Source: a virus. From it: a stretch of DNA of 28,753 bases. The DNA is taken from IMG/VR virus record IMGVR_UViG_3300014711_000005, positions 1-28,753 of that record; one strand, 5' to 3'. Below the pieces are notes generated by a model. That model did not search any database, was not told the origin of the DNA, and saw only the letters and a list, made by a program, of their open reading frames with translations. Positions 103 to 23,214 of the stretch are shown piece after piece (the stretch's first letter is position 1; every line of letters begins with the position of its first letter). The translations under genes and the position numbers were made by a program.

Positions 103-689
103 CCCTCACTCCCAACCCCATCGCTGCCACCCTGCCCACAGGCGTGGCCATGCTGCGGCCGTGGGCTGCGCCGGTCACGCTGCGCCAGGTCGATCCGCAC
201 ATCACGGTGCTGCAGCGCGTCAACACCTTGCTGACGCCTACCACCCTGCTCGCAGCGGTCGAGGGATCGTCCGCGCTGGACGCGCAAGAGATCGCCGCCG
301 TCATCAACCCGCTGCGCCTGGCGGTCGACGCGCTGCGCACGCGCACGGCCACGTTTGACGACTGGTTGCGGCTGGCCAGCGTGGTCAACATCGCCAACGC
401 CATCGAGCGCCAGGGCGTGGTGCGCGGCATGGCGTCAGAGCTGGCCAAGTGCGAAGCGGCCGTGCAAGCCATCGGCGACCGCACAGGCGACACCCACGAC
501 ACCTGGAAGTCGCCCACGCTCTACGCCGCCGAGATCACGGCCATCAGCGACCTGGTGCACTGGCACAAATTCCAGCTGCAGCAGCTGTCTTACAAAGAGT
601 ACGCCAGCGCCCGTGACTACGCGGTGGCCAAAGTCCGGTCAAGCGGCGGGCGGGCGTTCAATTTGAAGGGAAGCCATGCGAACACTTGA
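99..689 (+). CDS. Hypothetical early phage protein
   Basis: A 196-residue soluble protein that I do not recognise. I chose the ATG at 99 rather than the in-frame ATG at 24 because 99 overlaps the preceding stop as ATGA and has a purine-rich Shine-Dalgarno stretch (AAGGGGGG, 89-95) at the right distance. The sequence is mostly alpha-helical, with a leucine/alanine-rich centre and a more polar C-terminal third holding a His-Trp-His cluster (about residues 155-157). There is no signal peptide or membrane segment. It sits in a translationally coupled early operon upstream of a small membrane protein and a DNA-binding protein. A role in replication, regulation or host take-over is possible, but nothing in the sequence decides between them. 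Confidence 0.75.
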   Translation: MTLTPNPIAATLPTGVAMLRPWAAPVTLRQVDPHITVLQRVNTLLTPTTLLAAVEGSSALDAQEIAAVINPLRLAVDALRTRTATFDDWLRLASVVNIANAIERQGVVRGMASELAKCEAAVQAIGDRTGDTHDTWKSPTLYAAEITAISDLVHWHKFQLQQLSYKEYASARDYAVAKVRSSGGRAFNLKGSHANT

Positions 690-813
690 AGCCATCGCCG
701 CCATCGTCACTGGCGTGCTGGCCATGATCGGCCTGTGGACCGTGTCAATGGCCGTGCGCATCGAAACGCAGCGCCGCAAACGCATGCGGGAACTGAAGAA
801 GGAGCAGCTATGA
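676..813 (+). CDS. Small single-span membrane protein (45 aa)
   Basis: ATG at 676 (after AAGGGAAG) to TGA at 811 gives 45 residues. It overlaps the preceding gene by 14 bases and the next gene as ATGA (810-813), so it fills the junction exactly. Residues 5-26 are hydrophobic (start EAIAAIVTGVLAMIGLW) and the remaining third is strongly basic (RIETQRRKRMRELKKEQ), giving an N-out/C-in helix with a positively charged cytoplasmic tail by the positive-inside rule. Such early small membrane proteins can act in superinfection exclusion or in modulating host membrane enzymes. That is inference only; no family is recognised. Confidence 0.6.
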   Translation: MRTLEAIAAIVTGVLAMIGLWTVSMAVRIETQRRKRMRELKKEQL

Positions 814-1034
814 CCGAAGCCACACTGGTGCAGCGCATCGAGCTGCTGACAAACGCCGTGCAGACCCTCAGTGCCATGATGGGCGCACGCCTGACCCGCG
901 CCCAACTGGCTGAGCGCCTGGGTGTGCACCGCAACACCCTGGCCAAGCGACTGGCCGAGCCGGGCTTTCCCCTGCCGGGCAAGGATGGAAAGTGGCTGCT
1001 GAGTGAAGTGATTGAGTGGGAGCGGAGTCGATGA
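810..1034 (+). CDS. AlpA/excisionase-like helix-turn-helix DNA-binding protein
   Basis: Start chosen at ATG 810 (ATGA overlap with the previous stop, GGAGCAG just upstream), giving 74 residues. The second half reads LTRAQLAERLGVHRNTLAKR followed by a wing and an IEWE-type C-terminal helix. This is the layout of the MerR/AlpA-like winged helix-turn-helix used by phage regulators and recombination directionality factors: 'x-x-LAERLGVxRxTLxRRL…FPxPxxxGxWxxSEVIxW'. It is the DNA-binding protein nearest the integrase gene, so an excisionase (RDF) role is reasonable, but a general transcription regulator fits equally well. The stop overlaps the start of the HNH gene (ATGA, 1031-1034). Confidence 0.7.
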   Translation: MTEATLVQRIELLTNAVQTLSAMMGARLTRAQLAERLGVHRNTLAKRLAEPGFPLPGKDGKWLLSEVIEWERSR

Positions 1035-1549
1035 TTTCAGACGAACAACAATTTTTAGAGCGGTTAAAAAAAGGGTTTACCTATGACCCTGAAAGCGGAA
1101 TTTTTACGCACAATATAAAGAAATCTTTTCCTGTTTCAGGTGTTATTGCTGGATGCAAAAACCCTATTGGCTATACAGTAATAAATGTATCCAAGAAGAT
1201 TTATTTAGCCCACCGTCTTGCTTGGCTTTATGTTTACGGGGAGTGGCCAAAGCATTGTATTGACCACATCAACGGCAATCGTTCTGACAACAGGATTTCA
1301 AATTTGAGAGATATACCAAAGGCCCAAAATCACCAGAACTTAAAAGGGCCAACAAAAGCAAACAATGCACGCGCACTTGGCGTTCATTTTTCAACCAAAA
1401 GAAAAAGGTTTATTGCTCAAATAGCCATTGACAAAAAAAGAGTTTACATAGGAAGCTATTCATCAAAAGAAGAGGCGGCGCAAGCATACTTAATAGCCAA
1501 AGAAAAAATTCACCCATCTTTTTCAAGCGAGTCTTTTTGCAATATCTGA
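1031..1549 (+). CDS. HNH homing-type endonuclease with C-terminal AP2 domain
   Basis: 172 residues from ATG 1031, chosen over the in-frame upstream start at 1016 because it overlaps the previous stop as ATGA. An HNH_3-type nuclease domain occupies about residues 60-102 (AHRLAWLYVYGEWP, then IDHINGNRSDNRISNLR with the Asp-His pair at 78-79). It is followed by an AP2-like DNA-binding domain at about 115-157 (LGVHFSTKRKRFIAQI, then GSYSSKEEAAQAY). This pairing is common in phage free-standing homing endonucleases, which cut intron- or endonuclease-less alleles and spread by repair. The gene is strikingly AT-rich and uses AAA/ATT/TTT codons, unlike its GC-rich neighbours. It probably arrived recently. 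Its last 27 bases overlap the 3' end of the convergent integrase gene. Confidence 0.9.
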   Translation: MISDEQQFLERLKKGFTYDPESGIFTHNIKKSFPVSGVIAGCKNPIGYTVINVSKKIYLAHRLAWLYVYGEWPKHCIDHINGNRSDNRISNLRDIPKAQNHQNLKGPTKANNARALGVHFSTKRKRFIAQIAIDKKRVYIGSYSSKEEAAQAYLIAKEKIHPSFSSESFCNI

Positions 1550-2747: not shown

Positions 2748-2780
2748 AAAAAACCCACCACCCTTTGCAGAGCGGTGGGC
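2748..2780 (-). terminator. Factor-independent terminator of the late operon
   Basis: On the minus strand CCCACC (2779-2774) pairs with GGTGGG (2759-2754) across a 14-base loop and is followed at once by six T residues (2753-2748). It lies about 70 bases after the endolysin stop, at the end of the minus-strand late genes, and would keep late transcripts out of the attP/int region. Confidence 0.75.
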
Positions 2781-2822: not shown

Positions 2823-2850
2823 ATCATTTTCTTGGCGTCAGGAAAATGAT
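2823..2850. repeat. Perfect inverted repeat at the endolysin stop
   Basis: ATCATTTTC (2823-2831) and GAAAATGAT (2842-2850) form a perfect 9-bp stem with a 10-base loop, starting at the endolysin stop codon. There is no T-run after it on the minus strand. It may be a 3'-end protecting hairpin, a protein-binding site or part of a tandem terminator with the stem at 2748-2780. Confidence 0.6.
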
Positions 2851-3314
2851 CAGGCAAAAGCTCGGGTGCCCTGCTCGTCAATGATCAAGGCCGCCCGGCG
2901 CGGCGGGGTGTCGTGGGTGTTGGGGATGCTGATGTGCGTCCAGCCGCCGCCGTTGGGCTTGGCGAATTCCCGGATGCATTGGTCAAAGCTCAGGCCGCTG
3001 GCCAGGATGGCGCGGACCACCTGGTCGGGCGTCATGCCGGGCACCTTGATGTCGGCGGCGCAGCCTTTGGTGTGTTGGCTGGTGTCTTTGCTGCCAATAG
3101 CCCGGTTGACGGGCAGTGTGCGCAGGCCGCTGGTGACGACGATGGGCTTGCGCACCAATGCACGGACTTGCTCCAACAGGTTGGCCAAGCGCGTCAGGTT
3201 GGCCAGCTGCAAGGCGTCAGGCTGGTTGTCGATTCCAAGCCGGTCGGCGGTTTCGCTGTGTGTCAGCTCGGCCAGCGTGAAATTGGGCGTCAGGTGGGTT
3301 TCTTGGACTTCCAT
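2850..3314 (-). CDS. Endolysin, M15-family peptidoglycan peptidase
   Basis: 154 residues with the zinc-binding pattern of M15 (VanY/M15A-like) peptidases: His81 in SQHTKGCAADI, Asp88 in the same motif and His127 in GGGWTHISI. The N-terminal NFTLAELTHS and the SGLRTLPVNRAIG segment are typical of phage M15 endolysins. It should cut peptide bonds in the peptidoglycan stem or cross-bridge during lysis. There is no signal peptide, so release depends on the adjacent holin (3318-3833), three bases upstream in the operon. It is the last gene of the late transcript; a hairpin and a terminator follow. Length is ordinary for the family. Confidence 0.92.
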   Translation of the reverse strand: MEVQETHLTPNFTLAELTHSETADRLGIDNQPDALQLANLTRLANLLEQVRALVRKPIVVTSGLRTLPVNRAIGSKDTSQHTKGCAADIKVPGMTPDQVVRAILASGLSFDQCIREFAKPNGGGWTHISIPNTHDTPPRRAALIIDEQGTRAFA

Positions 3315-3317
3315 GGC

Positions 3318-3833
3318 TTACCCCTTGCTGGCCATGAGTTCGGTCTTTTGCTGGCTGCCGTGGCTGCTGCCAAAGTAGAAGCTCAACACGACCATCAATG
3401 CGCCGTCCAGCGTGCCTAGCACTCGGGCCACCAGTTCGCGCATGCTTTGGTCGACCACGTGCGTCAGCAAAAACCACTGCACCAAGCCCCAGGCCAGCAC
3501 TACCAGAACGGCCAACACCCCTGGAATTCGGCTGCGCGTGCTGGTCTGCATCTCGCGGGCGCTCTTGCGGTCTTCCACCACCAGGGCGGCCAGCTTTTCT
3601 TCGTTGGCGTAGCCCAGCTCGGTCATGCGGACCTTGAAGTCCATCTCGGCCTTTTTGAGCGCGGCGATCTGTTCGGGTGTGGCCGATGCCATCAATGTGG
3701 GCAGGTCTTCGGGCTTGCTGGATGGGTCGCCCAGCGCCTCGGCGGCCAGCTTGGCCGCCATCGCGCCAAACGGCCCACCAATGGCTGCGCTCAGCATGGG
3801 CGCTGCCGACTTCAAAATGGTTTTCAGGTCCAT
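3318..3833 (-). CDS. Holin, 3TM (GTA-holin-like) family
   Basis: 171 residues. The N-terminus has an Ala/Gly-rich weakly hydrophobic helix (about 8-35). A charged amphipathic middle (about 50-98) follows, then two clear membrane helices: PGVLAVLVVLAWGLVQWF (about 104-122) and a segment around LDGALMVVLSFYFG (about 141-156), ending in a polar tail. This is the shape of the 3TM holin family first described for gene-transfer-agent release. It would permeabilise the inner membrane and let the M15 endolysin downstream reach the wall. It sits 12 bases after the outer-membrane protein gene and 3 bases before the endolysin gene. Confidence 0.85.
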   Translation of the reverse strand: MDLKTILKSAAPMLSAAIGGPFGAMAAKLAAEALGDPSSKPEDLPTLMASATPEQIAALKKAEMDFKVRMTELGYANEEKLAALVVEDRKSAREMQTSTRSRIPGVLAVLVVLAWGLVQWFLLTHVVDQSMRELVARVLGTLDGALMVVLSFYFGSSHGSQQKTELMASKG

Positions 3834-3845
3834 GGTGCTGTCCTT

Positions 3846-4955
3846 TCAAAAAGTTCTGGAAACGCGCAGGCCGACTGCTGAGCCTTTGCGGTGGGTTAGC
3901 AGACCCGTTCGGCTGCTGGCATCGTCTTGTGTGCTGGTGGCCTGCAAGGTGCTGGCCCAGCCGCCGGGCCAGTCATGCCGCCAAGCCAGGCTGACGCTGG
4001 GCACCGTGACGCGCTGACCGTTGGGTGGCTTGGGGTAGGTGGTGCGGTTGTCGTATTCGCTCCATCCGATGGCCGCGGTGTCTGCTGGGCCTGGCCGGAC
4101 AATGGCCTCCAGCGTGGTGCTGCTGCCGTGCCATTGGTACGGGCTGGCCGGGTTGACCTGTTCGCCCGCGTTGGTGTTGCGCGAGGCTCGCAGGGTGAGC
4201 CAGTGGGTGACTGGCAGTTCGGCGGCCAGGTAGGTCATGTCGTAACGCATGCGGCGCTGGTATGGCTTTTTGGCCCCGCTGGCGTCATCTTGGTCCTGCG
4301 TGGTGTGCAGCCAGCCGGCACGCAGCTGCAGCCCGCTGGCCAAGTGCATGGCATTGATGCTGGCCCCATGCTTGCTGTGGGCCACCGTGGGGCCGGTGGC
4401 CACGTAAGGGCCGAGCTTGTCGTCTTGCCCGTCGACCTTGGGCCGGTACATGCCGACCATGCCATCGATCAGCCAGCCGCCGTGCAGGCCCGTGGCGTAG
4501 GCTTGGCCGCCAAATGCGCCCTGAGCGACTTCGCGCAGGCCGTGGAAGCGGCAGTAGGCGTCGGGCTCGCTGATCCATGGCCCTTCACCCATGGGTCGGC
4601 ACCAGCTCACGCGGTAGGGCAAAACGCCCAGGCGCAGGCCCAGGCCATCGGCAAGTCGCCAATCGGCATCAAGCCTGTCTACGCGCCACCCACCCACCTG
4701 GTGCGATTGCCCGCGGGCGGTGAGCTTGACTGCGCCCGCATCGGTTTGAAGAGTGGTGCTGGCATCCAGCGTGGCCCATGCCCCTGCGCTGCGCCATGTT
4801 TTGGCCGGGCTGTAGTCAGGCAGGTAGCGGGCTGGCCCGCCCTGAATATGCCAGGCGTCAACACCCACAGTGGCCGAGACTTCGGCGCGGATGGCCGTGG
4901 CCGCAAGCAGAGTGAGCAGCATGATGGCCGGGGTGATTAAGCGGGTCAAAAGCAT
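3846..4955 (-). CDS. Phage-encoded outer-membrane beta-barrel protein
   Basis: I place the start at ATG 4955: it overlaps the upstream stop by 10 bases and begins a clear signal peptide (hydrophobic core PAIMLLTLLAATAI, cleavage after AIRA at residue 24). The mature protein of about 345 residues is built of alternating polar/hydrophobic strands and short turns (for example GLQLRAGWLHTT, WLTLRASRNT, AVGLRVSRTF). It ends in Phe, as expected for the BAM-recognised beta-signal of outer-membrane barrels. A conserved-looking SWCRPMGEGPW...AYC stretch (about residues 118-138) carries the only two cysteines, which could form a disulfide. Porin-like function is inferred. It lies in the late operon between a secreted protein and the holin, so it may act in lysis or in blocking re-infection. 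Confidence 0.8.
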   Translation of the reverse strand: MLLTRLITPAIMLLTLLAATAIRAEVSATVGVDAWHIQGGPARYLPDYSPAKTWRSAGAWATLDASTTLQTDAGAVKLTARGQSHQVGGWRVDRLDADWRLADGLGLRLGVLPYRVSWCRPMGEGPWISEPDAYCRFHGLREVAQGAFGGQAYATGLHGGWLIDGMVGMYRPKVDGQDDKLGPYVATGPTVAHSKHGASINAMHLASGLQLRAGWLHTTQDQDDASGAKKPYQRRMRYDMTYLAAELPVTHWLTLRASRNTNAGEQVNPASPYQWHGSSTTLEAIVRPGPADTAAIGWSEYDNRTTYPKPPNGQRVTVPSVSLAWRHDWPGGWASTLQATSTQDDASSRTGLLTHRKGSAVGLRVSRTF

Positions 4956-5401
4956 GGCTTGACCCCTTGCCCTGCCAGCGGGATGGCGCTGTATCCGACC
5001 GCTGGCGCATTGTCGGCCAAGCATGTTTGCATGTCTCTGACAAGCCGGATGCCTCGGTCCACCAGCCCAGTGCTCTTGGCCATGGCAGCGGCGCTGTCAG
5101 GATTGATGCCGATCAGGCTGCCAAAGGCGCTGCGTGTGTCAGGGTGGGCCGGGTCGAGCATGCAAGCCGTGAGCCATGTGCTGCCCACCAGCACGGGCTG
5201 GCCACTGTAGGCCTGCAACACATCAAACCGCTCAATTCGGTTTTTGGTGCGGCGGGCCTTGCCTGCCGTGCCGGTGGCCCCGGCAGACTCGTAGCCGTCT
5301 TCCAGCTGGGCGATTTGCACCTGGCGCGTGTTACTGCAGTAAAAGTCTGCCGCCTGGGCGGTTGCGCACAGCACAGCCAAAGCAAAAATGGTGTATTTCA
5401 T
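4946..5401 (-). CDS. Secreted cysteine-containing protein, unknown
   Basis: 151 residues beginning with a signal peptide (Lys2, hydrophobic core TIFALAVLCATAQA, predicted signal-peptidase I cleavage after Ala17). There is no valid lipobox, so it is probably a soluble periplasmic protein rather than a lipoprotein. The mature part has four cysteines (residue 22, in LTACML, in MQTCLAD and the penultimate residue), enough for two disulfides, consistent with a periplasmic fold. I do not recognise the family. Its start overlaps the upstream coiled-coil gene's stop as ATGA, and its end overlaps the beta-barrel gene by 10 bases, so the three products are probably made together. Confidence 0.8.
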   Translation of the reverse strand: MKYTIFALAVLCATAQAADFYCSNTRQVQIAQLEDGYESAGATGTAGKARRTKNRIERFDVLQAYSGQPVLVGSTWLTACMLDPAHPDTRSAFGSLIGINPDSAAAMAKSTGLVDRGIRLVRDMQTCLADNAPAVGYSAIPLAGQGVKPCF

Positions 5402-5703
5402 CGCGGCAACTTGTTGACGATCTGCCCGATCTGCGAGGACATCACCTGCAGATCAGATTTGATGGTTTTCATGTCTGCAGCCATGGCGGCGAAACCGGTC
5501 TGCAACTCCTTTACTGCCTGGTCGGTGTTGCGCTGGCGGTCGTCAATCGCCTGCACCTTGGCGGGCGCTTCCTTGAGGCGCTGAATGTCGTTTTTAATCT
5601 CGCTGAGTTGCTGGCTTCCAAAAAATATGAGCGCAGCAAAGCCGCCCAGCACCTTGAGGTCCATCCCAAAAACTTGTTTGTCGACGGTCTGAGTTTGTGT
5701 CAT
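5398..5703 (-). CDS. Membrane-anchored coiled-coil protein
   Basis: 101 residues. A short N-terminal tail is followed by one hydrophobic segment (VLGGFAALIFFG, about residues 18-29). A long polar helix (about 33-98) then shows heptad-like spacing of Leu/Ile/Val/Met, as in a coiled coil. This is the topology of Rz-type inner-membrane spanins (N-terminal anchor, periplasmic coiled coil), but no sequence motif proves that, and a holin-associated or XhlA-like role is also possible. The stop overlaps the next start as ATGA. It opens a three-gene envelope set directly before holin and endolysin. Confidence 0.75.
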   Translation of the reverse strand: MTQTQTVDKQVFGMDLKVLGGFAALIFFGSQQLSEIKNDIQRLKEAPAKVQAIDDRQRNTDQAVKELQTGFAAMAADMKTIKSDLQVMSSQIGQIVNKLPR

Positions 5704-5718: not shown

Positions 5719-6198
5719 TCAAACGGTGGCGGGGGCAAAAAAGCTTTGACGAAACGGCATCCACACGGCGGCGAAGTCAGCGATGTTTTCCTTGGTCATC
5801 ACCAGGCTGTTGCCGTTGGCAAAATGGAATCGGGTCGGCTGAAAGGCCGCACCCTGCAGCTGCTTGGCCATCAGCACAGCCATCAGGCCGTTTTGATCAT
5901 CCCGCGTAGCGCTGCACATCACGCCATCAAACTCAACGCCAATCCACTTTGGATCAGGTTTTTGATTAGGCTTTTGATCAGGCTCTGGTTTTGGATCTAG
6001 CACTTTGGGTGGCTGTGGAATTTCCTCAATGACCCAACACCCATCCCACTTTGCACGCTTCCCTTCCTGGATCGCCGGGGCAGGCGCATCAATCGCGCCT
6101 GCTGGCAAAAGGAAAACGCCCGGTTCAAGGGGCGATTCGTCGGCAGTCGTGAAGCCAGCAAAATAGCCAGCAGAGTCCAGTTGAATGACTTGTTTCAT
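5719..6198 (-). CDS. Tail-fibre assembly-type protein (DUF4376-like C-terminus)
   Basis: 159 residues. The N-terminal third resembles tail-fibre assembly proteins (GYFAGFTTADESPLEPG, then a W-D-G-x-W element near residues 51-55). A repetitive Pro/Lys/Asp linker follows (KPEPDQKPNQKPDPK, about 69-83). The C-terminal part matches the pattern of DUF4376-type domains: QNGLMAVL, RFHFANGNSLVMT and a final VWMPFRQSFF. It lies 9 bases after the tail-collar fibre gene, the usual place for a fibre chaperone, and probably helps that fibre trimerise. The linker repeats are short and may vary between relatives. Confidence 0.75.
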   Translation of the reverse strand: MKQVIQLDSAGYFAGFTTADESPLEPGVFLLPAGAIDAPAPAIQEGKRAKWDGCWVIEEIPQPPKVLDPKPEPDQKPNQKPDPKWIGVEFDGVMCSATRDDQNGLMAVLMAKQLQGAAFQPTRFHFANGNSLVMTKENIADFAAVWMPFRQSFFAPATV

Positions 6199-7089: not shown

Positions 7090-10000
7090 TCAGTAGGCCT
7101 GCACGACAGCATCGATCAGGCCGGTCACGGGGGTGCCCGAGGCGTTGAGCACTGTCACCAGCGGCCCCAAGGTCAAGTTTTGTTTGTCGGCATAGCGGGC
7201 CGATGCGCCGCCGTTGCCGTCGGTCTGCACTGTGAGCTTGACGTTTTTGACAGCGGTCAAGCCAGCAGGCAAGGTTAGACGGGTGCCACCTGGCGACACC
7301 ACCAGATCATCAAAAGTCACAGTCACATCAGGCACATCCAGCAAGGCCGACAAAGTCTGGATCGATTCGACGCCCGCGCCGCCCAAAGTGGTAATGCGAA
7401 AGCGCATGTCTTGTGCGCCAACAACATCGATCCAGCCTGGCCACACCTTCCAAACAGGCAAAGACCCAAAAAACGGATCTGCGTCTGCGCCATAAAAGGC
7501 GTTTGCATCAGCCCCAAAAAACGCAGAGACGTCATCCGTCTGGTATTCGATGGTGTAATTGGCCGCGACAATCTGATGTGTAAGAGACAGGCGGCCTGAT
7601 GCATCGACATAGACGCTGAACTCGTACTGCATCGCACCGCTTTGCGAGGTGGCAAAGAAGACATCTGCATCAGACCCATAAAAAGGCCCATCGTCCGCCC
7701 CATAAAAGGCATCTGCTCCGATGGCTTGCAGCACAGCACCAACCACGGTGCAGCCGGTTTTTGTGCCAGTCCACAGCGGGTGCTGTGGCCATTCGTTAAT
7801 GATGTTGTCGACCACCTGATCACCAAGATCGGTCACGATCTGAGCGGCGTTGACGCTCTCGTTGCCCGTAGTGTCCACCGCCTTGATCAACAGGGTCACA
7901 GGGCCAGTGGGCCGGTTGACCATGGTGTATGGGCTCTCAGTGATCAGTCCGTCATGCAAGTCTGCAGCCGTGGCCCACCAGGTGTTCTGGCCGTAGTTAA
8001 AGCGGATCCTGTAGCCCGCCAGATCAGGCACATTTACAGGCGACCAGCTCAGCACATCGCCACTGACTGTGAAGCTGGCCACATCTGGCGGCGGGGCGCT
8101 CAGGCCTCGCACGGTGTAGCTGACGCGCCCGATGCCGCCAATCTGGCCCAGCCCGTTGAATGGCCGCAGCTCGATGTCCCACGACTCGGACAGCCCCGCG
8201 ACCCAGGTGAAAGACCGCGCGTCTGTGGTGCCCATGACCTGAAGCGGCGCACCATTGGCCGCACCATACACCCGCACAGTGCCTGCGTTTTCGTTGATGG
8301 TGAATGAGACGGTTAACTCGGTGTACCAGGTATTACCCTGTCGCTTGAGAATCTCGGTGACATAAGCGCCCGTGATATTGGGCAGTCGGTTGAGCAGACT
8401 GATATTGGGCGGCGGCGTATACGCGCCCGTCAGCACATAGGGCCAAAACTCATCGGGCAACGGCACCACGGTCACACGCGCCCCAGCCATGTTGTCGGTC
8501 GGCTCCACCTTGGCAACCACCACGCGCTGGCCAGGTGTGGCCTTGAAGTCGTAGATCCACAGCGCGTCGAGCGGTTGGCCGTTTGCGCCAGGCAGCGCCA
8601 CGCCAGCAGGCCATGCGCTGGCCAGCGTCACTGTGCGCGTGCTGCCGGTGAATGCTGCAATGGTGAACACGCGGTATTGCGTCTCGCCGACCAGGCGCAG
8701 ACCGATGTATCGACTGCTGGCCCCGCCCGGTCCGGTGGCGGGGATGGTGTCATCCAGCGTCAGCGTCACAATGCCGCCCGACTCGGTGGCCGACTGGATG
8801 CGCCCGCTGTAGCCCCACTGGGTCATGTCGTGGCTCAGGGCCAGCACGGTGCCGCGGCGGTAGGTCAAAAACTCCAGGTCTTGCTCAAACGTGATGCTTT
8901 TGGCCATGTAAATGTTTTGCGCCATGGCGTGGCGAGCCAGCAGGGCGGCATGGCCCTCGCTGGTGATGCCCTCATTGCTCAGGCGGGCGGTGGTGCGCGG
9001 GTTGCTCACGCCGGGCGCGATCACGCGCAGGCTGTTCCAGCTGTTGCTGCGGTTGCGGTCAAAATAGCCGTATTCGATCTCGTCCGCGCGGTCATTCGTG
9101 TCATAGCTCACACTGAAAGACCGGGCCTTGATGTTGCCCATGTTGATGACGCCCTCGACCGGCTGCGCATCGTCCAGCCACTGCACGCCCAGCCGCCCCT
9201 CGGCCCAGCTGATGGTGGCCAGGCCTGCGTAGGCAATCGCGCCCATCAGCTCTTCGTGGCTCATGGCGTCCTGTATCACCGCGTCAAAAGTCAGGCCCTT
9301 GGCCGCGCACCAGACCATGAAGCGCTTGAGGCCTTCGACATCGATTCGGCTGTCTGGCCAGCCCAGGCCCGCAACCAGCTTGCCGTTTTCGTCATAAATG
9401 CCACGGGCCAGTTGCAGGATCTGTGCGCCAGGGTTGCTCAGGCCGTTTGTGCGGTTGGTGGCCGTAGTCCAGGCACTGCCATCCCAGTAAGGCATGGGCT
9501 TGGCGGTGGCGATCCAGTTGAGCTCGTCCACCGCGCCGCTCAGCTGCCCGCTGGCCTTGGCCGTCATGGCCACAATGCTCTGGCCGGGGTAGCTGCTCAG
9601 GTCTTGCTGAAATGACTTGAGCTGCGTCCACTGCACCGTGTTTTGGGCACTGGTGCTGGTTTCGTTGGTCGTCAGCTTGCGCAGGCGAACATCGTATTGG
9701 CCAGCCGCCACAGGGATGGTGTAGCCCACGCGCAGGGGGCTTGTGTTGGAATTGGTGAGCTTTGCAATGCCCGCTTGGTAAGGCACATCACGCCAGCGCT
9801 TGACAGGCAGTGGTCCGTATGTGGTTCCGATGTACTCGCCTTCGGGGGTGTAATTGAAGGTAAAGCCGTCCTCGTAGGCTGTGTACTCTTCGCGATAGGT
9901 GGCGCCGGTGGGCAAGCCGATCCAGTCTGCAGAACCAGTTGCGCGGTACTGTATTTCAATCAAAGCCTCGCGCCACTCATAAGCGCCGTTGGTGGCGTTG

Positions 10001-10917
10001 ACTGCAAACACATTGGCCTCCAGATCGATGCCGATCTGCAGCGTGTTAGGGCTGGTTGTGCGCTGCACCCAAGGGCCGTAACCGCTTGGCGCGTCCAGGA
10101 GGCCACCTGCGATGGTGTCGACGCTGTTGTTGGGCAGGCCTGTTGGGTAGCTGCTGCCAGGCAAGCCATAAGCCCGGAAGCTGACACCTTGATAAGACTC
10201 AACCGGGGTCTGGCCAATGCGAACATTGCTCACGCCGTGACAGTTGATGCCCGCATGAAACTGCTGCACCAGGTACTGGTCTTGCCCAGAAAAAAAGCTG
10301 TACGGCTGGCCCGCCAAGTCGGGCACCACATAGGGCTGGCCCAGCACCAGGCTCATGGGCTGCCAAATGCGCATCTGGTTGCGGCCGCCGCTCAGGCTGT
10401 AAGTCGGCTCGGTGGTGTTGACGGCCAAGTCCATGCCCATGCCGCCGCGCTTGGGTGGCGGCAGCAGCTTGTTGATGACCATTGCGCCGGCGGCGAAGAC
10501 CACGGCACCAGCAATCGCCAGCGACAACCCTGTCAGCTTTGTGACGCCAGCAAACCAGCTGCTGGTGCCAAGTGTGAAATAAGCCAGCGCCGCAAACGCG
10601 ATGATCTTGACCACCTCTTTTTGCACCGCAGGCCTGCACTCGATCACCTGCGCATGGTGCACGCGTGTGCGGCCCCACATGAGCGCGGGCACCTGCAGGC
10701 CGCCCACTTCCACAATCCAGGTGTCGGTCACGCCGTGACGCTGCAGCACGGCCAGCAGCGTCTCGCCGTCTTCCATCAGCACGGCCACGCTGGTCTGGCC
10801 CTGCTGGGTCAGCGGGTGCGGGGTCACCACCAGCTGGGCGCTGCGCTCTGGCAGCAGGCCGGGGCGGCGCTTGAATGGCGGCTCTGTCAGCGGCATGAGG
10901 GTTGTTTTTACTTCCAT
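7090..10917 (-). CDS. Tail tip host-specificity protein (J-like)
   Basis: 1275 residues from ATG 10917, chosen because it overlaps the previous stop by 10 bases; a longer in-frame form would begin inside the upstream gene. The N-terminal 100 residues are followed by two hydrophobic segments (about 102-120 and 128-148, the second LSLAIAGAVVFAAGAMVI) as in lambda I/J-type tip proteins. The middle matches the J/phage-tail central region (GYFDRNRSNSWNSLRV, the region before ALLARHAMAQNIYMAKSI), followed by fibronectin-III-like domains (about 830-1040, for example FTVSGDVLSWSPVNVPDLAGY). Near residues 1066-1150 there are Asp-rich repeats of the form FYGADADPFF. It forms the tail tip and usually decides receptor binding. 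Confidence 0.93.
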   Translation of the reverse strand: MEVKTTLMPLTEPPFKRRPGLLPERSAQLVVTPHPLTQQGQTSVAVLMEDGETLLAVLQRHGVTDTWIVEVGGLQVPALMWGRTRVHHAQVIECRPAVQKEVVKIIAFAALAYFTLGTSSWFAGVTKLTGLSLAIAGAVVFAAGAMVINKLLPPPKRGGMGMDLAVNTTEPTYSLSGGRNQMRIWQPMSLVLGQPYVVPDLAGQPYSFFSGQDQYLVQQFHAGINCHGVSNVRIGQTPVESYQGVSFRAYGLPGSSYPTGLPNNSVDTIAGGLLDAPSGYGPWVQRTTSPNTLQIGIDLEANVFAVNATNGAYEWREALIEIQYRATGSADWIGLPTGATYREEYTAYEDGFTFNYTPEGEYIGTTYGPLPVKRWRDVPYQAGIAKLTNSNTSPLRVGYTIPVAAGQYDVRLRKLTTNETSTSAQNTVQWTQLKSFQQDLSSYPGQSIVAMTAKASGQLSGAVDELNWIATAKPMPYWDGSAWTTATNRTNGLSNPGAQILQLARGIYDENGKLVAGLGWPDSRIDVEGLKRFMVWCAAKGLTFDAVIQDAMSHEELMGAIAYAGLATISWAEGRLGVQWLDDAQPVEGVINMGNIKARSFSVSYDTNDRADEIEYGYFDRNRSNSWNSLRVIAPGVSNPRTTARLSNEGITSEGHAALLARHAMAQNIYMAKSITFEQDLEFLTYRRGTVLALSHDMTQWGYSGRIQSATESGGIVTLTLDDTIPATGPGGASSRYIGLRLVGETQYRVFTIAAFTGSTRTVTLASAWPAGVALPGANGQPLDALWIYDFKATPGQRVVVAKVEPTDNMAGARVTVVPLPDEFWPYVLTGAYTPPPNISLLNRLPNITGAYVTEILKRQGNTWYTELTVSFTINENAGTVRVYGAANGAPLQVMGTTDARSFTWVAGLSESWDIELRPFNGLGQIGGIGRVSYTVRGLSAPPPDVASFTVSGDVLSWSPVNVPDLAGYRIRFNYGQNTWWATAADLHDGLITESPYTMVNRPTGPVTLLIKAVDTTGNESVNAAQIVTDLGDQVVDNIINEWPQHPLWTGTKTGCTVVGAVLQAIGADAFYGADDGPFYGSDADVFFATSQSGAMQYEFSVYVDASGRLSLTHQIVAANYTIEYQTDDVSAFFGADANAFYGADADPFFGSLPVWKVWPGWIDVVGAQDMRFRITTLGGAGVESIQTLSALLDVPDVTVTFDDLVVSPGGTRLTLPAGLTAVKNVKLTVQTDGNGGASARYADKQNLTLGPLVTVLNASGTPVTGLIDAVVQAY

Positions 10918-11363
10918 GTGTAAAACCCCTCGATGCGCTGGCCACGCCATGCAAAGTCGCGCAGGCGGCTCAGCGACGCATTGCCCATCACGGCCGAGTT
11001 GTGCAGCACCCACACCTCGCCCCGGTACACAAACACGGTGCCGATGTGCCACAGCAGGTGGCCGGCCTCATTGGGGCTGGTGATCAGCACGCCGCAGCCG
11101 TGCACCGGCTCGGCAATGCGCTGGGCCAGTGCGTCACGCGCTGCGCTGATTTGGGCGGCTTGCCCTGCCCGGCCCTGGGCGTGGCAGGTCAAAGCAGCGG
11201 GCACCGTGACCGTGCGGCCAAACACTTGGCGCTGCACGTCCAGAAACAGGTGCGCACAGTCGTATTCGCCGGGCACATAGGCTGCGCCCACGTAGCTTTG
11301 CGCGTCTGCAAAGTCTTGGGTTTCGTCGCGGCCTTGCTGGGCAGGGGTGGTGTAGTTGTTCAT
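10908..11363 (-). CDS. NlpC/P60-family tail assembly peptidase (K-like)
   Basis: 151 residues with a catalytic Cys in PGEYDCAHLFLDV (about residue 36) and a catalytic His in LLWHIGTVFVYRG (about 107). This is the pattern of NlpC/P60 cell-wall peptidases found beside J in lambda-like phages, where gpK takes this place. It probably trims peptidoglycan during entry or acts in tip assembly. It follows the DUF1833 gene by three bases and overlaps the J-like start by 10 bases. Confidence 0.88.
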   Translation of the reverse strand: MNNYTTPAQQGRDETQDFADAQSYVGAAYVPGEYDCAHLFLDVQRQVFGRTVTVPAALTCHAQGRAGQAAQISAARDALAQRIAEPVHGCGVLITSPNEAGHLLWHIGTVFVYRGEVWVLHNSAVMGNASLSRLRDFAWRGQRIEGFYTWK

Positions 11364-18988: not shown

Positions 18989-19201
18989 GGGGTGCAACAG
19001 CGCCACCAGCTCGGCTTCGCGGCGGCGGCGCGTGCGGCGCAACGGGGCGGGCGGCGGCATCCAGTGCCAAGGCGCGCCCGTGCGAAATGGACGGCGGCGG
19101 CGTTTCTTGGTACCGCCAGCCGCGGACTCATCGCTCACCTTGCCCCAGGTGTCTTTCCAGGTGTAGGCCCAGCTTTTGGCCCAGCTGCTGCGGCGGGTCA
19201 T
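18986..19201 (-). CDS. Small basic tryptophan-rich protein
   Basis: 71 residues from ATG 19201, which overlaps the stop of the giant protein as ATGA (a GTG five codons upstream is rejected for that reason). The N-terminal third has tryptophans every four residues (SSWAKSWAYTWKDTW), as in small proteins of capsid modules in related phages. The middle and end are very basic (TKKRRRRPFRTG, LRRTRRRREAE) and Pro-rich. It could bind DNA, RNA or the acidic surface of another virion protein; none of this is proven. The stop codon is the first triplet of hairpin repeat copy 1. Confidence 0.65.
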   Translation of the reverse strand: MTRRSSWAKSWAYTWKDTWGKVSDESAAGGTKKRRRRPFRTGAPWHWMPPPAPLRRTRRRREAELVALLHP

Positions 19202-22200
19202 GCCGACGGACCCCACTCGTCACCCTCGGCGCCAGTGCCGGTCACGGGCACATCGTTCACCTGGATGATGTTGGCCTTCAGCGTGGCGGCCAGAATGTCG
19301 GCCACGATGGCCGCTTGCAGGCCTGCGCTCTCTGCCGTGGCTGGGCTGCCCAAAATGATGCTGTAGCCTGTTGCGTTGCCGCGCACACGGTCATCGGCGC
19401 TCTGGCCGCTGTCTTCATGAATGACCGGGCAGGTCAGTTTCACCGATGCCGTTGACGCTGCAGTCAAGAACATCTGCAACGGGTTACCGTTGGGGATGAT
19501 GATCTTCTGGCTTGTCGCGTTCGCCTTGATCGGGTTGGTCCAAGTCCAAACCAAGCCTGGCAGGTGCATGATGCGCTGCGTGGCCTGATACAGCTCAGCA
19601 AAGCCAGGCTGCAAAATGCCGCCCGTTGTGTTGGCCACAGCCACCTGCATGCTGGTCGGCTCGTAGCTGAAGATGGATTCCAGCACCGCGTTAAACGGCA
19701 TGGTGTATTGCGGCGTGTTGTTGCTGCTCACCTGGAACTGCAGACTCATGTCCAGCGAAAGCGTCAACGTGGTGTCAAACTCCAGCTCTTTCCAGTCATA
19801 CCCGGGCACACGGGCCTGCACGGTGTAGGTGTCTTGGTCCACCACAATTTGCGTGTTGTTGCCTGTGCCTGTGGCGGTGGTCCAGGTGGCGTCGGCCAGC
19901 TTTTTCCAGCGTAAGTTCCAGGTCACAGACAGACCAAGCGGGTTCAGGCCTGTCACACTGGCGCGGCTGCCGTTCACATCGGCCACGGGGATTTCATTGG
20001 CCGTGGATTCAATGATTCCCGTGGTTTTGACCTCAGACAGCAGGTCGGTGACGCTACCACGAACAAAATGGATCGAGTCGTCCACTGTGTAATCGGCCAA
20101 GTCCAACTTGCCACCAGTCGAACCGGCCACAATGTTCTGCTCAATGGCAAACGACGACCACTTGTTGATCAGCGCGTTATACATGCGCTGGGCGCTCCAG
20201 GCCAAAGTGCCAGTGGCTGCGGCCAGCACCTTGGTGGCTTCATTGACGGTGATCAGCGCGGCGTCAGCGGCACCCGTGGTGTCGTTGATGTAGTTGCTGT
20301 CCACGGCACCGCTGGCCGAATAGGTCAAAAGGCCTTTTTTCGCGGTAGCAGCGGCAAACGTCACAGACTGGCCAAGCCAGCCGTTTTGGCGGAAGTCCAG
20401 CGTCCAGTTGATGGTGTTCAAGACAGTTTTGTCATCCAAGCTGTCCACGAACGGCAGGAAGCCGTCTGCGGCATCCATGAATGTCGGGTCACGGAAGAAC
20501 TCACTCAGCGGCACGCCGCTTTCTGCCGTAGTGGCGATGATCTTGCTTGGGTAGCGCGTGGCCATGGCCGATGGCTTGATGCGCATCTTGGGGGCGTAAC
20601 CAACTTTTTCGACATGCAAAGACGGACGGAAGCCAATGACGCCATAAAAGCCAGCGTTGCCCGTTGGCGTGCTGCCAGCTGCCCAGCGGAAGATGCCACC
20701 AGACTGCATGACAGGATCGACCCACCACCACTTGTTGGACGAGCCAAACGTGTTGGGGATGGTCGCAGCGCTGCCCGTGTAGGTGTAGGTGTCCATCAGG
20801 ATGTTCGACGTACCGTTACCAAAGATCGAACCGCCGTATTTGAAGCCCACCATCTTGCTGTTGTTGGTGGTGTAGCCCATCTGCCAGACCACATTCGTGG
20901 CCGTGCCGTTGACAGTCAGGCCGTTGATGACGGATGCGGGCAAGAAGTAGGCATGGATGGCCACCTGCGCACCATTGGGGCAATTCAGGGTCAGCGTGGA
21001 GTTGCTGATATTCCATGTGGCCCCCGCTTCGGTGTTGCTAAACACAGTGCCAGACCCGCTGGCCACGATGTTGTAGGTGACCGTGGAGTCGGACAGGTTA
21101 AGCGTGGAGCCGTTGCGGAATTCGCTGGTTGTGGCCGTGCCATAGCCAAGCGTAGCGGTCGGGCTGATGGTGAGCGTCGAGCCATTGGTGACGTTTAGTG
21201 TCGATCCGCTCTCAAACTGAAAAAGATCACCACGTGCGGCTGGCGTCCAAAGCACATCGTCTTTGTCAAATGTCAGGCTGGCGGTGTTGCCAAACTTCCA
21301 CTGAGTCGAACTGCGCACGGTCTTGTTGTATTCGCCCATCGTCAGTGCGCCAGCTGTCCAGTTGAGCTTCCATGTGCTCAACAAGCGGTACACCCCGCCA
21401 TCGCTGGACTGATAGTCAGGCTGTGCGCTGTTGGCCGGTAAGGCCTGCGAGTGCGATCCAAAGGCATACACCTCGTCAAGATTGCGCGATGCCGACCCGT
21501 TCAGCACCTTGTTGGTGTAGTCGGGCGAAACGCCTGTGATCAAAGCGGCCTGGGCGGGTGTCACGCTGCCCATGGCTGGGTCGGACAGCATGAAAACGGG
21601 AAGGCTATAACCGGCATCGTTCAGGTTGTACGAACGGGACTGCGACACATAACCAGTCTTTCTGGCCTGCCAGGTTTGAGCGCGGGTGTCCACCTTGGTG
21701 GTGGCGTCGCGGTAAGAGCCCGCCGTGCCTGTCCACACCATGTAGGCGTAGTTCAGGGCTTGGCTGAAATCGCCGGCCTGCACTGCGTTGACCATCACGT
21801 TGGTGCCGCTGTTGATGTAGAGCGTGACGCCCGTGAGGTTATTGGCGTCACCATCGTTGAATTCCAGCTTGACGGTGCGGCGGTAGGTGCGGGTGTTGTT
21901 GCTGTACTGCCTGGTGTTGGTCAGGACGTTGTACCCTGCCGGGAAAATCGGATCGTCCAGAATTTCATTGGCCGTCGTGTTGGCGCCCAAAAATGTGGTG
22001 GATGGGTCGCGGTAGAAGATGGGCGCAAAACCTGTCACCGGAAGATTGTTCGGGAATGCCCACTTGATGTCGGGGTTGGAACCCGTGGTGTTGCCAGAGG
22101 GAACGCTGAAATACTCGAACTTGCCAAGAGAAACCACGCTGTTGGCGTCAAAGCCTGTTCCCTGCCCACCAATGGCGCGGTAGATCGTGACTTTCTCAAT

Positions 22201-22767
22201 GCTGCCGTAGCTGCCGCCAATGCCAGCGTTGGCACCAACGGCGTCGCCGTAGTAGTCCATCATGATGTCGCCACACTGGTATTCGGCATAGCGGAACGAC
22301 AGCACGGCCGCGCGGTTGGAACCGCCGATCTGAACCCAAGCCACATCGTTCCATTGAATTTTTGGCTTTTTCGTTGGAAAGTCTGGCGGGTTGGTGGTCC
22401 ATAAACCAATGGTTCGGCCACCCAAGGCGTTATCGTAGTTGTTGTAATTGAACGTCGCGCCTTTTGCCTTGATAAGTGACGTGCCCTGCACCTTGTAGCC
22501 GCTGCGCCAGGTGCCCGTGCCGTAGCTTTCATTGAAGCGGAAAGATGCACCGTCGAGCAGGCTGTAGACCCACTCGGTGTCGTCATAGATTGCACCGTCA
22601 GCAATTTCCAGAATCACCTTCTGCATGGAAGGAATCTGGATCATGTTGGTGCCCAGCGAAGTGCCAAAACCCGCCGCGATGATGTTTTGCGGGGTTGCAG
22701 AATCTCCGCTTGCAGACAGCCTAACGGTGACGGTGCCGCCAAGGGTGCCGGTTACTGTGACTGCCAT
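19198..22767 (-). CDS. Giant beta-rich putative virion surface protein in the head module
   Basis: 1189 residues, rich in Ser, Thr, Gly and Asn, with almost no Cys and no signal peptide. Residues about 500-620 show short repeated strands and turns (GSTLNVTNGSTLTISPTATL, NGSTLNLSDSTVTYNI, NISNSTLTLNCPNG), as in a beta-helix or beta-roll. About 930-1010 looks like an Ig/fibronectin-like domain (VTWNLRWKKLADATWTT). The C-terminus has a helix (LQAAIVADILAATLKANI) and ends VPVTGTGAEGDEWGPSA, an ending seen on other phage structural proteins. Its place between the portal/hydrolase genes and the capsid gene is odd for a fibre. I infer a capsid fibre or spike, but a misplaced tail fibre is possible. 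Confidence 0.75.
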   Translation of the reverse strand: MAVTVTGTLGGTVTVRLSASGDSATPQNIIAAGFGTSLGTNMIQIPSMQKVILEIADGAIYDDTEWVYSLLDGASFRFNESYGTGTWRSGYKVQGTSLIKAKGATFNYNNYDNALGGRTIGLWTTNPPDFPTKKPKIQWNDVAWVQIGGSNRAAVLSFRYAEYQCGDIMMDYYGDAVGANAGIGGSYGSIEKVTIYRAIGGQGTGFDANSVVSLGKFEYFSVPSGNTTGSNPDIKWAFPNNLPVTGFAPIFYRDPSTTFLGANTTANEILDDPIFPAGYNVLTNTRQYSNNTRTYRRTVKLEFNDGDANNLTGVTLYINSGTNVMVNAVQAGDFSQALNYAYMVWTGTAGSYRDATTKVDTRAQTWQARKTGYVSQSRSYNLNDAGYSLPVFMLSDPAMGSVTPAQAALITGVSPDYTNKVLNGSASRNLDEVYAFGSHSQALPANSAQPDYQSSDGGVYRLLSTWKLNWTAGALTMGEYNKTVRSSTQWKFGNTASLTFDKDDVLWTPAARGDLFQFESGSTLNVTNGSTLTISPTATLGYGTATTSEFRNGSTLNLSDSTVTYNIVASGSGTVFSNTEAGATWNISNSTLTLNCPNGAQVAIHAYFLPASVINGLTVNGTATNVVWQMGYTTNNSKMVGFKYGGSIFGNGTSNILMDTYTYTGSAATIPNTFGSSNKWWWVDPVMQSGGIFRWAAGSTPTGNAGFYGVIGFRPSLHVEKVGYAPKMRIKPSAMATRYPSKIIATTAESGVPLSEFFRDPTFMDAADGFLPFVDSLDDKTVLNTINWTLDFRQNGWLGQSVTFAAATAKKGLLTYSASGAVDSNYINDTTGAADAALITVNEATKVLAAATGTLAWSAQRMYNALINKWSSFAIEQNIVAGSTGGKLDLADYTVDDSIHFVRGSVTDLLSEVKTTGIIESTANEIPVADVNGSRASVTGLNPLGLSVTWNLRWKKLADATWTTATGTGNNTQIVVDQDTYTVQARVPGYDWKELEFDTTLTLSLDMSLQFQVSSNNTPQYTMPFNAVLESIFSYEPTSMQVAVANTTGGILQPGFAELYQATQRIMHLPGLVWTWTNPIKANATSQKIIIPNGNPLQMFLTAASTASVKLTCPVIHEDSGQSADDRVRGNATGYSIILGSPATAESAGLQAAIVADILAATLKANIIQVNDVPVTGTGAEGDEWGPSA

Positions 22768-23214
22768 TTACTTGCTCTCCACCATGTGCAGCACCCCGGG
22801 GTGCATGCGCCATGCTTCCTTGTGGCCAATCACGGTGGCGCAAACCTCGCTGCAAAACCACTTGGTTTCATGTTCACGGCTCACAAACGGCAAAACGCTG
22901 CGCACGCACCCCACCAGGTCATATGGGCGGCCACGGTGGTCAGCCACAAAACTCCAAAACGCGCCCTCGCTCACATGGGGCAGCGCGATCACATCCCACT
23001 TCGCTGGGTCCAGTTGCATGCGCTTGATGCGCACACCGCCCTCGGTGCCCACGCTGCTCAGGCAGTCCACTTCGGCCTCGAAAGGGTTGCCCAGGCAGAT
23101 TTCGCTGTGGCTGTAAATCGACTTTGTGAAAAACCGGATCGCCCGGTTCACCAAGCCATGCCAGCCGGGGCGGGTTCCTTTGTACGATGCAAGGTGCAGG
23201 ACCATGGGGCTCAC
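22768..23214 (-). CDS. Permuted papain-like (YiiX/NlpC-P60 superfamily) hydrolase
   Basis: 148 residues with the order of catalytic residues found in permuted NlpC/P60 (YiiX/YaeF-like) enzymes. His36 in IYSHSEICLG comes first, and Cys121 in KWFCSEVCATV near the C-terminus comes second; RPYDLVG (about 96-102) lies between. Members cut amide bonds in peptidoglycan or acyl/peptide substrates. Here the gene overlaps the portal stop as ATGA and touches the giant protein gene, so the product is likely a virion or late protein. It may be a wall-degrading enzyme delivered with the particle. There is no signal peptide. Confidence 0.8.
   Translation of the reverse strand: MSPMVLHLASYKGTRPGWHGLVNRAIRFFTKSIYSHSEICLGNPFEAEVDCLSSVGTEGGVRIKRMQLDPAKWDVIALPHVSEGAFWSFVADHRGRPYDLVGCVRSVLPFVSREHETKWFCSEVCATVIGHKEAWRMHPGVLHMVESK

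Follow-up and report, generated by a model that had tools for sequence, protein, structure and literature searches.

How might a phage with a holin-like gene and an endolysin gene, without a recognisable Rz/Rz1 spanin pair, deal with the outer membrane of its host? In a survey of spanins, about 13% of phage genomes lacked a recognisable spanin, and its authors considered an outer-membrane protein a possible o-spanin in such spanin-less phages (PMC6139136). The stretch of DNA analysed here in full, referred to as the window, is a 28,753-base fragment of a lambda-like tailed phage from which most early genes are absent. A sequence-only reading had pointed to three overlapping genes in it, here named P1, P2 and P3, and had proposed that they form either an outer-membrane disruption system in place of spanins or a superinfection-exclusion set.

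Genomic organization of the P1-P2-P3 locus

The minus strand of the window encodes terminase, portal, capsid, gpJ and tail fibre. From gpJ (7090-11052) onwards, the order is tail fibre, P6, P1, P2, P3, a holin-like gene, an M15 endolysin gene, a terminator-like stem and integrase. The features around the trio are as follows.

5719..6198, minus strand: P6, tail-fibre-linked protein (159 aa) of the same operon, upstream of the trio; in L058 and L066 also upstream of lysis genes
5398..5703, minus strand: P1, predicted inner-membrane protein (101 aa) with one transmembrane (TM) stretch followed by a coiled-coil-like tail; homologues lie directly 5' of P2 in every phage locus
4946..5401, minus strand: P2, secreted four-cysteine protein (151 aa), overlapping P1 by 4 bp; in no Pfam or NCBIfam family
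3846..4955, minus strand: P3, porin-like outer-membrane beta-barrel with signal peptide (369 aa), overlapping P2 by 10 bp; in no Pfam family
3318..3833, minus strand: holin-like membrane protein (171 aa); phrog_1544, E 2e-22 (PHROG function unknown), one homologue being annotated as holin
2850..3314, minus strand: M15 peptidase endolysin (154 aa); PF08291, E 6e-19, and phrog_894 endolysin, E 3e-39
2753..2780, minus strand: terminator-like stem 3' of the endolysin gene, of 12 pairs and followed by a T run

Coordinates and predictions agree with the arrangement described earlier, that is, overlapping genes for a membrane coiled-coil protein, a secreted four-cysteine protein and a barrel directly before holin and endolysin. 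The holin-like gene begins 12 bp beyond P3, and the endolysin gene follows after a further 3 bp; the holin assignment draws on similarity to a holin-annotated gene and on position, with no named profile behind it. P3 starts at an ATG of its own that an AAGGGG ribosome-binding site precedes; position 5024 in the ORF list is only where the longest frame starts.

Between gpJ and the endolysin, adjacent genes lie 3 to 36 bp apart or overlap slightly, and the stem (2780-2753) is the probable end of the late operon. Given this tight row of genes and the terminator-like stem after the endolysin, P1, P2 and P3 look like late genes. A promoter scan returned one promoter-like site in 4.8 kb, which is the number expected by chance; a late-operon position without an above-chance promoter would favour a lytic-phase role over that of a prophage-expressed gene. 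The three are real genes, since homologues are kept in other phages and dN/dS in the pair L052/L054 is low (about 0.15 for P1, 0.30 for P2 and 0.07 for P3), ratios that indicate purifying selection on the trio. Values of P3 dN/dS and identity from comparisons with the window were out of frame and were left aside.

Elsewhere in the window, a 1189-aa protein, probably beta-rich and structural, is encoded at 19198-22767 (minus strand), between the portal side and a capsid protease-fusion gene. At the same site L054 and L055 encode a protein of 1270-1296 aa whose N-terminus differs, adjoining an inserted holin-endolysin-trio module. A 148-aa ORF with NlpC/P60-type or hydrolase-like resemblance (22768-23214, minus strand) lies between the portal and the 1189-aa protein, where L054 and L055 hold the lysis module. 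Beside the integrase and opposite to the late operon, an ORF at 1016-1549 (plus strand) probably encodes a homing-type HNH endonuclease.

Predicted properties of the three proteins

The tail of P1 is charged and helical, and by composition the protein would fit the topology of an i-spanin (N-terminal TM plus periplasmic coiled coil); its best PHROG match is an Rz-like spanin at a non-significant E value of 0.005. P2 carries a signal peptide and four cysteines. In the family alignment C22 and C150 are invariant. C80 and C127 go together: this phage and every chromosomal member have both, and the other phages have neither, a pattern as expected if they form a second disulphide. The structure model of P2 reached a pLDDT of 46, and its fold matches were discarded as meaningless.

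P3 carries a signal peptide, and its C-terminal residue is F. Its AlphaFold model contains about 15 strands, with a mean pLDDT of 58 and values above 80 in the C-terminal half; Foldseek matched this moderate-confidence model to porins (E 8e-6), as would be found for a porin-type outer-membrane barrel. At the sequence level, Pfam gave no porin match and profile searches no solved relative. Residues W118, C119, W127 and C135 are invariant across all members, and the strand order, in a weak part of the model, suggests that the W118-C135 loop may correspond to the porin constriction loop. The invariant cysteine loop would suit a channel better than an anchor, which counts against a spanin-like reading.

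Search for spanins in the window and its relatives

All frames were scanned heuristically for ORFs with a TM stretch plus helix that overlap proline-rich lipoproteins. The scan works, because it recovered embedded Rz/Rz1 genes in relatives (L053, L058, L060, L068, L069 and L070). No Rz/Rz1 pair was found in any frame of the late region of this fragment, in agreement with the sequence-only reading, nor, with relaxed lipoboxes included, any Rz1-type or u-spanin lipoprotein or other lipobox-bearing candidate for an o-spanin. P1, P2 and P3 are themselves devoid of a lipobox, and none shows the combination of lipobox and C-terminal TM that characterises a unimolecular spanin. In gene position, the trio lies in or near the lysis cassette, as spanin genes do.

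Among close tail relatives, the trio (the window, L054 and L055; n=3) and Rz/Rz1 (L058, L060, L068, L069 and L070; n=5) are mutually exclusive, L058 and L060 carrying near-copies and the pair in L070 occupying another site. This comparison leaves out the distant tail relatives L071-L109, where the Rz/Rz1 scan looks insensitive. The two larger trio phages, G874 (37.8 kb) and G875 (33.3 kb), yielded neither a late-strand lipoprotein nor Rz/Rz1 by the scan. L053, which belongs to another background, encodes an embedded Rz/Rz1 pair in addition to trio, holin and endolysin, and PHROG supports this pair (Rz-like spanin, E 4e-10 and 5e-4). The idea that the trio stands in place of spanins therefore fits the alternation seen in close tail relatives, but is not general; likewise, the expected co-occurrence of the trio with the lack of Rz/Rz1 holds for the window, G874 and G875, but not for L053.

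Lipoproteins do occur elsewhere in trio phages: G874 encodes one among its early genes, on the opposite strand, and in L115 a 201-aa lipoprotein (287-892, plus strand; lipobox LTGC) lies directly 5' of P1. Either might be an o-spanin-like partner, and the L115 protein a possible extra outer-membrane partner.

Distribution of the trio among phages

Single-sequence searches with P2 and P3 found nothing in viral contigs and phage records. Neither protein had a match in 50,697 phage records, including by tblastn with other phage members as queries, and neither is represented in profile libraries. Phage relatives were recovered by profile searches, for which the P3 profile had to include chromosomal relatives. 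The full trio is present in eight further phage contigs, namely L051/L110, L052, L053, L054 (37.8 kb), L055 (33.3 kb), L114, L115 and L119; independent contigs are few and mostly fragments, L052 and L055 being near-copies across the trio stretch. A ninth contig, L120, encodes P1-P2 without P3. P1 lies 5' of P2 in 9/9 phage loci. About five contexts and four endolysin types (M15, transglycosylase-type, lysozyme-type and GH108-like) are represented.

Window and L119: trio after tail genes, before a holin-like gene
L052, L054 and L055: between portal and capsid, in the order holin-like gene, M15 endolysin, P1-P2-P3, DUF1353-like gene
L053: trio, then a tail-fibre-like gene, a holin and a transglycosylase-type endolysin, with Rz/Rz1 last
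L115: trio followed by a TM protein, a GH108-like endolysin and a holin
L120: P1-P2 followed by a lysozyme-type endolysin
L110 and L114: trio 3' of a collagen-like protein, with no lysis gene within the contig

The endolysin and holin assignments in L053, L115 and L120 were compared with PHROG; the labels GH108-like and DUF1353-like are our own reading of the sequences. In L120, a distant phage, P1-P2 (927-2568, plus strand) immediately precedes the lysozyme and the barrel is absent, so P2 may work without P3. The terminase-sharing Polaromonas, Variovorax and Duganella prophages offer no lysis comparison, because holin and gpJ were not found in those genomes.

Chromosomal relatives of P2 and P3

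P2 relatives occur in 10/84 genomes of one Burkholderiaceae-type genus, and a class-level genome sample contained none outside it; among 401 family-level genomes, clear P3 relatives were confined to the same genus. At L036, L037, L038 and L046, P2-P3 pairs without P1 are located among housekeeping genes, away from lysis genes. These pairs match the phage trio in containing both families, in identical order and with similar overlap, but differ in lacking P1 and nearby lysis genes and in falling into a separate clade at 26-32% identity. Phage and chromosomal forms separate with support of 100/100 for both P2 and P3, which ruled out a recent capture from a chromosome. A cellular relative of the P2-P3 pair therefore exists, but the form found in phages is old, specific to them and joined to P1. 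Genes of the set occurring separately and far from lysis genes had been named as a refuting case; the trio proved to be a conserved unit beside lysis genes, but the chromosomal pairs and the P3-less L120 depart from it.

Other chromosomal P2 copies adjoin S8 subtilases and CHASE2 kinase, FecR/LysM and EAL genes. At L039-L045 and L047, P2-family proteins, sometimes two, flank S8 subtilases near genes for a response regulator, a FecR/LysM protein, a histidine kinase of the CHASE2 type and an EAL protein; these loci constitute an undescribed bacterial gene cluster.

Such neighbourhoods, which include P3 barrels, would suit a role in uptake or sensing, in which P2, as a small solute-binding-like protein, and the P3 porin, derived from a bacterial pair, alter nutrient or signal exchange across the outer membrane. 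The best match of the P2 profile is a periplasmic phosphate-type binding protein (1twy, E 0.012), and one family member matches TIGR04505 (E 0.0023). Both matches are weak, however, hhalign comparison with alignments of periplasmic binding proteins gave no support for homology, P2 has no Pfam match and a poor model, and late expression would leave little time for nutrient gain; we regard this role as improbable.

The nearby sensor genes could also suggest, by analogy with T4 RI, which acts in lysis inhibition, that the module informs the holin of a signal from the periplasm or the surface and so sets the timing of lysis. The trio, or P1-P2, adjoins holin and endolysin genes, and P1 is membrane-bound with a soluble tail. 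Similarity to known antiholins is nevertheless lacking, and the holins differ among trio phages, which makes a timing sensor the most remote of the roles considered.

Possible role at the outer membrane

What was observed directly is the structure of the genes, their place in the operon, their conservation, their repeated occurrence next to lysis genes and the porin-like fold match of P3. From this we tentatively propose that P1-P2-P3 form a trans-envelope module, adapted to phages, that belongs to the late lysis region and acts at the outer membrane. The trio would be produced late in infection together with holin and endolysin. P1 would be anchored in the inner membrane, its coiled coil extending into the periplasm, P2 would be an oxidised periplasmic partner in contact with the other two proteins, and P3 would be inserted in the outer membrane. 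After removal of the wall by the endolysin, the module might open or weaken the outer membrane in spanin-like fashion, with a porin-type barrel as outer component in the Rz1 lipoprotein's stead. An outer-membrane lysis step is the most likely role because the trio keeps with lysis genes despite changes in endolysin, holin and position, because it lies in the late operon and because it alternates with Rz/Rz1. Several features argue against it: Rz/Rz1 in L053, the chromosomal P2-P3 pairs, the lack of P3 in L120 and the lack of a lysis gene in the L110 and L114 contigs. L053 and the chromosomal pairs also imply that the trio is not simply a spanin under another name.

The porin-like nature of P3 and the coexistence of the trio with Rz/Rz1 in L053 would also fit surface conversion or superinfection exclusion. 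P3, helped by P2 and P1, would then take the place of a receptor or mask it, and the lysogen or the infected cell would be resistant to related phages or would not trap progeny. Porins are encoded by other phages too, and in the Escherichia coli prophage DLP12 the porin gene nmpC adjoins the lysis genes essD-rrrD-rzpD/rzoD. In DLP12, however, nmpC and the lysis genes face opposite ways, whereas P3 runs in the direction of its neighbouring lysis genes, overlaps P2 and belongs to a late operon with no above-chance promoter; a receptor mask would also leave the constant link to P1 and P2 unexplained. We consider conversion or exclusion, the main rival to a role in lysis, possible but rather unlikely.

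For the outer component envisaged in the spanin survey, the trio is a concrete candidate, conserved in several phage backgrounds but represented neither in sequenced isolates nor in profile libraries, and it is suited to the standard lambda complementation assay. With some doubt, the trio might represent a third architecture for outer-membrane disruption, in which an inner-membrane protein with a coiled coil, a periplasmic protein with disulphide bonds and a porin-type barrel replace or supplement lipoprotein spanins, the outer two sharing ancestry with a differently used bacterial pair. Should the trio serve in exclusion instead, it would amount to phage porin conversion carried out by three proteins.

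Comparison with known systems

The trio resembles lambda Rz/Rz1 in its lysis-region position, in a predicted inner-membrane protein of type II-like topology whose tail would form a coiled coil, in overlapping genes and in periplasmic cysteines. It differs in having a secreted protein and a porin-like barrel rather than an outer-membrane lipoprotein, and in coexisting with Rz/Rz1 in L053. Lambda Lom, a small Ail/OmpX-type barrel, is likewise encoded 3' of tail genes, but by a single gene without P1 or P2.

Lc of phage PA-2 is a conversion porin, and Lc and DLP12 NmpC share with P3 a phage-borne porin-type barrel adjoining lysis genes, although no sequence relation to P3 was found. P3 does not fall into a porin family by sequence, and it does not form a transcription unit of its own, being encoded on the same strand in overlapping genes with a promoter-like site at chance level. 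NmpC stands alone, whereas P3 is linked to P1 and P2. By analogy, nmpC in DLP12, of the conversion kind, is the nearest precedent for a porin gene beside lysis genes.
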